From Peptococcaceae bacterium (GTDB taxonomy: Bacteria > Bacillota > Dehalobacteriia > UBA4068 > JAAVYR01), in contig JAAVYR010000018.1 of the NCBI GenBank assembly GCA_022791255.1, positions 186,001 through 250,000 of the forward strand: a stretch of DNA of 64,000 bases, read 5' to 3'. How positions within the stretch are numbered: the stretch's first letter is position 1; the number at the start of each line of letters is the position of its first letter. The notes beneath the pieces are model-generated. The model did not search any database, was not told the origin of the DNA, and saw only the letters and a program-made list of their open reading frames with translations. This document shows positions 38,869 to 40,715 of this stretch, one piece after another. Position numbers and translations under genes: made by a program.

Positions 38869-38897
38869 TTGACAAATCTGCAGTTCTTTGTTATGGT
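38869..38897 (+). promoter_or_regulatory. Promoter of the ABC-F attenuator unit
   Basis: Consensus TTGACA (38869-38874), 17-base spacer, TATGGT (38892-38897). It begins immediately after the cyclophilin stop and starts a leader of about 320 nt. Confidence 0.75.
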
Positions 38898-38937
38898 AAA
38901 AAATATCTAGATAATCAGATAGATAAGGGGTGGGAAG

Positions 38938-38958
38938 ATGCGTCATTTTTCTTGCTAA
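38938..38958 (+). CDS. Six-residue leader peptide (MRHFSC) of the ABC-F attenuator
   Basis: A short ORF, ATG to TAA, with a strong AAGGGGTGGGAAG ribosome site 35-40 bases after the predicted transcription start. Such uORFs sense antibiotic-stalled ribosomes in front of ABC-F and erm genes. Its position, and the terminator/antiterminator structure downstream, support a regulatory role. Translation itself is inferred. Confidence 0.6.
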   Translation: MRHFSC

Positions 38959-39027
38959 TGAAGTAAATAGGCTATAACAAATAGGAAAATCTAGAAAGCA
39001 GTGTGTAACTGTTTTACTTTGTTATGG

Positions 39028-39203
39028 CCGGCAAGAAGAATAACCGTCTTTCTTATTATCAATTTACAGCTTATTCAAAGAGCAGTATCTTACTATCTAT
39101 TGCTATTTACTAGCAGTCGTTTGGGCAGAAGGATAAGCGAGTGAAAATGTAACAAGGTAGTGTATATACCGCAGGAAGAGGTTTCTTCTTGCGGTATTTT
39201 TTT
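39028..39203 (+). promoter_or_regulatory. Antiterminator/terminator module before the ABC-F gene
   Basis: CCGGCAAGAAGAA (39028-39040) can pair with TTCTTCTTGCGG (39183-39194), the right arm of the terminator, with one bulged G. That pairing would exclude the terminator. GTTAT/ATAAC around the left element could in turn sequester it. This is classical ribosome-mediated transcription attenuation geometry. Confidence 0.65.
39166..39203 (+). terminator. Attenuator terminator 25 bases before the ABC-F start
   Basis: ATACCGCAGGAAGA pairs with TCTTCTTGCGGTAT (one G-U), GGTT loop, seven T. It stands before the gene it controls, not after one. Confidence 0.85.
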
Positions 39204-39227
39204 GACTGTATTTAGGAGGTGGTTTGT

Positions 39228-40715
39228 ATGTCGATGATACAAATTTCCAATCTGACTTTTGCCTATCCTGGACAATATGAAACAATTTTTGAGCATCTAT
39301 CTTTGCACTTGGATAGCGACTGGAAGCTGGGCCTAATCGGCCGCAATGGCAAGGGGAAAACCAGTTTCTTAAAACTTTTGACAGGAATATATGATTATAA
39401 AGGGAGTATCTCTGCACAGGTTAAATTTGCTTATTTCCCTTATGAAGTGACAGATAGGACGGCGACTAGCCTTGATTTATTTTACCAGATTAATCCAGAG
39501 GTGCAGCAATGGGAAATAGAACGAGAATTATCGTTGTTAGATGTTGCAGAAGATGTTTTGTTTCGGTCCTTTTCTTCTTTGAGTCCGGGGGAGCAGACGA
39601 AAGTAACACTTGCTGCCTTGTTCCTGAAGGAAAATGTCTTTCCTCTGATAGATGAACCGACCAACCATTTGGACGAGGTTGGACGGGAGTCGCTGGCGCG
39701 GTATTTGCGTAAGAAAAATGGTTTTATCTTAGTGTCTCATGACCGTTGGCTTTTAGACCAATGTGTAGATCATATTTTGGCTATTAACCGTAATGGAATA
39801 GAGCTGCAGCAGGGAAACTTTTCTAGTTGGCAGGAGAATAAAGAACGACAAGACCAGTTCGAACGAAACAAAAATGAAAAGCTATCCAAGGAGGTGAAAC
39901 GATTATCAGCGCGGGCAAAAGAGACAAAAGCGTGGGCAGATTATACGGAACGACAGAAAATTGGCTATGACCCTATCAAAGAGGACCGCTTTATTGGGAC
40001 GAGAGCTTACCTCGGTGAAAAATCTCGTAAAATGCAGCAGCAAAGAAAAAACTTGGAAAAGCGGCAGGAAAAGGCTCTTAATGAAAAGGCAGCACTATTA
40101 AAAAATATAGAAAAACAAGAGCCGTTAAAATGTTTTCCTCTTGCTTACACAAAAAATGAATTAGTAAGATTAGAAAATGTTTCTGTCTTGTATGATGATA
40201 AGGCCATTTGTGAGCCGGTATCTTTTTCCTTGCGGCAGGGGGATAGAGTGGCGCTGGTAGGGAAAAACGGTTGTGGAAAATCTAGCTTATTAAAGCTGAT
40301 TTGTGGAGAAGCTATCCATTATCAAGGTTTGTTGGAAGTGGGCAGTGGCTTGAAAATATCCTATGTTCCCCAACGCACTAATTTCTTACAAGGGGACTTA
40401 TCTGCCTTTGCTCGAGAAAATGCTATAGACGAAACATTGTTTAAAACTATTTTGCGAAAGTTGGACTTTAGTCGGGAGCAATTTGAGAAGGATATGGCTT
40501 CTTTTAGTGATGGGCAAAAGAAAAAGGTATTGCTGGCAAAAAGTTTATCAGAAGAAGCGCACTTATTTATTTGGGATGAACCCTTAAATTTTATCGACAT
40601 CATTTCTCGGCTGCAGATAGAGGAGGTCTTATTGAAATACCGACCAACCATGATTTTTGTAGAACATGACAGAGTATTCCGAGAGATGCTAGTCACGAAA
40701 ACGATAGTGCTGTAA
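39228..40715 (+). CDS. ABC-F ribosome-protection protein, Lsa-like (predicted antibiotic resistance)
   Basis: A soluble 495-aa protein with two ABC domains and no membrane domain. NBD1 has GLIGRNGKGKTSFLKLL, the signature FSSLSPGEQTKV and IDEPTNHLDEVG; NBD2 has ALVGKNGCGKSSLLKL, MASFSDGQKKKV and FIWDEPLNFID. A charged linker between them (about residues 200-300) is the antibiotic-resistance domain. The WKLGLIGRNG region, the QWEIERELSLLDV segment and the IVL C-terminus resemble Lsa(A)-type proteins, which protect ribosomes from lincosamides, streptogramin A and pleuromutilins. The actual spectrum cannot be told from sequence. The start ATG at 39228 has AGGAGG 8 bases upstream. Confidence 0.88.
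   Translation: MSMIQISNLTFAYPGQYETIFEHLSLHLDSDWKLGLIGRNGKGKTSFLKLLTGIYDYKGSISAQVKFAYFPYEVTDRTATSLDLFYQINPEVQQWEIERELSLLDVAEDVLFRSFSSLSPGEQTKVTLAALFLKENVFPLIDEPTNHLDEVGRESLARYLRKKNGFILVSHDRWLLDQCVDHILAINRNGIELQQGNFSSWQENKERQDQFERNKNEKLSKEVKRLSARAKETKAWADYTERQKIGYDPIKEDRFIGTRAYLGEKSRKMQQQRKNLEKRQEKALNEKAALLKNIEKQEPLKCFPLAYTKNELVRLENVSVLYDDKAICEPVSFSLRQGDRVALVGKNGCGKSSLLKLICGEAIHYQGLLEVGSGLKISYVPQRTNFLQGDLSAFARENAIDETLFKTILRKLDFSREQFEKDMASFSDGQKKKVLLAKSLSEEAHLFIWDEPLNFIDIISRLQIEEVLLKYRPTMIFVEHDRVFREMLVTKTIVL

Follow-up and report, generated by a model that had tools for sequence, protein, structure and literature searches.

An intact gene for an ABC-F protein of 495 amino acids (39228..40715 on the forward strand, counted from its ATG) lies in the 64,000-nucleotide stretch of DNA analysed here, which we call the window, flanked by a gene for a cyclophilin-type peptidylprolyl isomerase and a convergent gene without a match in NCBIfam. 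Among the named subfamilies of NCBIfam, the Lsa model (NF000167) fits best, with 672.5 bits over its full length; as this is below the cut-off of 750, we call the gene Lsa-like. The broader model for ribosomal protection ABC-F proteins is passed (470 bits against a cut-off of 380), and the nearest PDB entry is Lsa(A) (7nhk). This agrees with the target named in the first-pass annotation of the locus, and by homology the gene is probably an antibiotic-resistance gene.

The leader of this gene, all on the forward strand, starts with a candidate sigma-A-type promoter (38869..38897), recognized by consensus only: TTGACA (38869-38874), a spacer of 17 nt and TATGGT (38892-38897) with an extended -10 TG, matching the consensus at 10 of 12 positions. 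From its position, transcription is predicted to start near 38904. A Shine-Dalgarno (SD) sequence, GGGGTGG (38927..38933), follows, and behind AAGGGGTGGGAAG, which contributes a strong ribosome site, lies a six-codon upstream open reading frame (uORF) encoding MRHFSC-stop (ATGCGTCATTTTTCTTGCTAA, 38938..38958). Such an SD-led short uORF is expected of attenuators of ARE-ABCF genes, and relatives carry a short uORF at the same place. Further downstream, a terminator stem of 14 pairs (39166-39197) is formed by a left arm (region 3, 39166..39179), the loop GGTT (39180..39183) and a right arm (region 4, 39184..39197); its tract of seven T (39197..39203), the predicted termination site, ends 24 nt before the ATG at 39228. 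Promoter, uORF and terminator had all been pointed out in the first-pass annotation. It should be noted that 13 promoter-like sites, this one included, occur in 3.5 kb where 9.7 are expected, and 2 terminators where 2.4 are expected; these counts therefore carry little weight alone, and the case rests on comparative evidence.

A predicted three-strand switch in the leader

Folding pairs region 1 (TTTTTCTTGC, 38946..38955), which is uORF codons 3-6 (UUUUUCUUGC), with GCAAGAAGAA (39031-39040) inside the core of region 2 (CCGGCAAGAAGAA, 39028-39040). The latter is the element that had been proposed to pair with the right arm of the terminator, a pairing now backed by both folding and co-variation; taken with its extension (CCGGCAAGAAGAATAACC, 39028..39045), region 2 has two alternative partners, region 1 on the one hand and the loop plus right arm of the terminator on the other. 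The two regions are connected by the P2 hairpin (38970..39029, GGCTATAACAAA/TTTGTTATGGCC, -21.8 kcal/mol), and the segment 3' of region 2 (39046..39062) pairs with the SD sequence of the uORF when P1 is closed, giving a long P1/P2 structure. The pairing of region 1 with region 2, the P2 hairpin and the complementarity of the GGTT loop to the AACC directly 3' of region 2, a putative toehold for the antiterminator, had been overlooked before; these pairings make the RNA of the uORF the first strand of the switch.

Region 2 mimics the left arm of the terminator and region 1 its right arm, so that three mutually exclusive states overlapping the uORF are predicted, and co-variation agrees: a 1:2 anti-antiterminator that also hides the SD sequence of the uORF, a 2:4 antiterminator and the 3:4 terminator. 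RNA folding, a check proposed along with the original annotation, gave -99 kcal/mol for the leader (z = -6.1, 0/100 shuffles as good), with P1/P2 and the terminator both present in the best structure. When a ribosome was masked at the start codon (-15 to +15), the 2:4 pairing dominated for transcripts of the window leader ending at 39182-39194, the interval of transcription during which the terminator would be forming; without the mask, P1 and the terminator were predicted at every transcript end tested. With the full terminator at equilibrium, 3:4 is better than 2:4 by about 2 kcal/mol even under the mask, and it wins only after the stem's final bases have become available; a kinetic mode of induction is accordingly predicted.

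The leader is very probably a ribosome-mediated transcription attenuator, which would be induced by a ribosome that a drug holds at the start codon of the uORF. Without the drug, a ribosome would translate the six codons and depart, or none would load; region 1 would then pair with region 2, P1 would close and hide the ribosome site of the uORF, and the terminator would form. With the drug, the footprint of the held ribosome, reaching to about +16, would cover region 1, and region 2, left free, would pair with the emerging terminator loop and right arm; 3:4 would be blocked and RNA polymerase would transcribe into the ABC-F gene. The ABC-F product would free ribosomes and should lower the signal, a feedback. 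Sequence, folding and co-variation provide support for all three pairings as well as for the terminator and the short uORF; the drug stalling at the start codon, the read-through and the feedback we infer.

Distribution of the leader among Lsa-like genes

In two relatives from this genus, the ABC-F gene is 84% and 81% identical, respectively, to that of the window and the uORF is the same, and homologues of about 50-58% identity in other families and classes have the same leader plan. A covariance model built from the 5' half of the leader had matches in 24 of the 399 genomes searched from the phylum; in the 35 genomes of the window's order, all strong matches (E <= 4e-7) were leaders of Lsa-like genes. 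A specific pattern matched at least 117 stretches in named genomes; 80 were retrieved, and 75 of these 80 lie directly before an Lsa-like ABC-F gene. The other five comprise one locus truncated at a contig end, one with transposase-like sequence, found in Clostridium sp. OS1-26 where the ABC-F gene is expected, and three loci (L096, L111, L129) that were rejected as real leaders because they appear to be chance; we calculate that about 3.6 matches would arise by chance across the entire collection. Among the carriers are Clostridium, Desulfosporosinus, Sporomusa, Brevibacillus, Paenibacillus and Streptococcus. When Lsa-like genes were located by protein alone, the leader was found at about 54 of 64 nonredundant loci, 47 with the anchored three-strand motif and 7 more with a strong match to the covariance model. 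The mobile lsa(E) of enterococci, staphylococci and streptococci (L034) is also preceded by the leader, with the uORF MYNFSC, region 2 GCAAGAAAG and the terminator right arm CTTTCTTGC; it differs in a second leader ORF between terminator and gene.

The leader is absent before the Lsa-like genes at L009, L197, L205, L206 and L213, and leaders of other kinds precede lsa(B) as well as single genes from a Priestia plasmid, Enterococcus raffinosus and Latilactobacillus. At L197, L205 and L206, all Paenibacillaceae, a different conserved leader contains an ORF starting MTELE(V/I)VDVYV(D/N)LSTN.

Some attenuators appear orphaned: at L063 (G147), L067 (G194) and L141 the switch is intact and a remnant of the ABC-F gene or a transposase-like sequence stands in place of the gene. 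In two genomes besides that of Clostridium sp. OS1-26, only ABC-F relics remain behind the leader, and at L011 (G013:C1) an in-frame TAA breaks the Lsa-like gene.

Where the gap between terminator and ABC-F gene exceeds 120 nt, 21 of 27 leaders (L117, L092, L083, L079, L157 and L034 among them) contain in it a further SD-led ORF, some 17-29 codons long and often with a conserved D-T-x-x-T-H-D-N-L-H, as in MINKDTLLTHDNLHIESDTAGDTYME; it is followed by hairpins and CCGACTTTG, then by the SD sequence of the gene. This arrangement resembles a second, independent attenuator, acting on translation and placed in tandem after the first. Comparable ORFs stand before lsa(B) (L036) and the Priestia gene (L035), both without the first attenuator; the window has none, and DTLLTH, as a string, was absent from the literature searched.

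Co-variation and the signal that is probably sensed

Comparison across relatives, another check proposed at the outset, revealed pairings that are both conserved and co-varying. In the core 1:2 helix, 92.8% of cells are paired, with 21 double-change cells against 8.7 after shuffling and a covariation score of 0.173, compared with 0.124 for shuffled and 0.054-0.107 for slid alignments; most core pairs are so strongly conserved that they say little on co-variation, and in pattern-derived loci the core letters are fixed by construction. Segments beyond the anchored core provide the sharper test. The 8 nt that follow region 2 fit the terminator loop of their own leader better than the loops of other leaders (z 11.1) and likewise their own uORF codons 2-4 (z 10.2), each with 0/10,000 permutations, and both pairings persist with 20 very different leaders (z 6.5 for the loop, 5.8 for codons 2-4); these z-scores are not probabilities, since the sequences share descent, but five equally related control pairings showed no co-variation (z -0.3 to 1.9 at n = 77). 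The pairing of the SD/codon arm is also better for cognate partners (-14.7 against -10.9 kcal/mol; 0/20,000). As the loop is unpaired in the terminator, its co-variation supports specifically the 2:4 antiterminator. Conservation and co-variation together strongly support the transcription attenuator proposed from the single sequence.

The encoded peptide varies among these leaders. Besides MRHFSC we find MINFSC, MYNFSC and MIILSC, five-codon MDFSC and MDISC, seven-codon MxxFFCK and a GUG-started MRTFLA that reads region 1 in another frame, as well as two-codon uORFs (MR, MK, MI, ME) and, in many Paenibacillaceae, one-codon start-stop uORFs (AUG or GUG followed by UAG, UGA or UAA; those at L201, L227, L234, L248 and L255 were called by eye, because the automatic rule picked a weaker upstream TTG/ATG or none). 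Two features are constant: the position of the start codon, 15-19 nt upstream of where region 1 ends, which is as far as a ribosome resting on that codon extends, and the nucleotides of region 1 themselves, whether translated, translated in another frame or untranslated.

An alternative is that, as in erm or msr(D) leaders, the nascent M-x-x-F-S-C and the drug are recognized together inside the tunnel. Phe/Leu-Ser-Cys is indeed very common in the six-codon class, and a penultimate Ser would fit a phenicol-type stall as well. The RNA switch is nevertheless kept in natural leaders reading M-stop, MR-stop, MK-stop, MI-stop, ME-stop, MxxFFCK or MRTFLA, and region 1 is conserved where no such peptide is made; the Phe-Ser-Cys of the uORF is explained by the sequence that RNA pairing demands of region 1. 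We rejected peptide-specific arrest on the short and frame-shifted uORFs and regard it as improbable. Of the leader-peptide attenuator originally proposed, the uORF-based attenuation thus stands; relatives with one- and two-codon uORFs indicate that the peptide is not a specific sensor.

Starvation for cysteine or serine is still less probable: the UCU UGC codons are conserved before the stop in most leaders, but they are only single codons, the intact downstream genes encode Lsa-like ABC-F proteins and not biosynthesis, and cysteine attenuation was discarded on the same short and frame-shifted uORFs, those of one and two codons having neither Cys nor Ser. A translation-independent riboswitch or protein-bound leader, suggested by a long, structured leader with a terminator and by Rfam results that exclude known classes only, is equally hard to credit, since a start codon with its ribosome site keeps a constant spacing to region 1 in almost every leader, the stops are variously placed, no aptamer-like core is conserved, and P2 and the spacer between regions 2 and 3 vary.

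Sensing at the start codon is the best explanation for a start codon kept in position while the peptide varies, together with the toeprint of vmlR, which lies 16 nt downstream of the start codon, lincomycin and retapamulin being expected to stall ribosomes at initiation (PMC9226507). With the start codon at ribosome reach of region 1, ribosomes stalled on that codon by a lincosamide, a pleuromutilin or streptogramin A are the likely trigger. On balance we favor, with less assurance than for the attenuator itself, a widespread attenuator family of Lsa-type genes, including mobile lsa(E), that would sense an initiating ribosome stalled at the start codon, the peptide being irrelevant down to one-codon uORFs and the antiterminator nucleating on the terminator loop.

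Relation to known attenuators

Attenuation of ABC-F genes through short uORFs is established (PMC9226507, PMC10201436, PMC12421871), with published uORFs MIN (VmlR), MK[L/Q] (VmlR2), MR[I/M] (CplR) and MAGN (LsaA) (PMC10201436). In Bacillus subtilis, the vmlR leader responds to lincomycin and retapamulin, depends on the start codon and SD sequence of its uORF, and likewise has a uORF inside an anti-antiterminator, an antiterminator, a terminator and an ABC-F target (PMC9226507); it differs in its uORF (MIN), sequence and spacing, in a target of VmlR rather than Lsa type, and in an extra SD-sequestering hairpin, of which the window leader shows no counterpart. The cplR leader of Clostridioides difficile also places a short uORF (MRI) in a 5' hairpin and attenuates transcription of an ABC-F gene (PMC10201436), but its terminator stem also hides the SD sequence of the gene (translation attenuation), whereas in the window this sequence lies 3' of the terminator. 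The predicted uORF of lsaA in Enterococcus faecalis belongs to the same ABC-F subfamily (PMC10201436); its published consensus is MAGN and not MxxFSC, and the window uORF, MRHFSC, is not of the published LsaA type.

No Rfam family reaches the gathering score for the leader, weak matches to miRNA and sRNA families being dismissed as chance. In the literature searched, which comprised open-access papers, we found neither MRHFSC nor anything relevant on the lsa(E) leader, and neither there nor in Rfam the leader family, its presence at lsa(E) or start-stop uORFs; these three would accordingly be new, provisionally in view of that scope, to the known attenuation of ABC-F genes. The finding suggests a single regulatory logic for inducible Lsa-type resistance in many genera of the Bacillota and for the mobile lsa(E). 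The natural start-stop uORFs would offer a clean test of the question raised for vmlR and cplR: whether the uORF sequence is read in a drug- and peptide-specific manner, or whether stalling at the start codon is sufficient.
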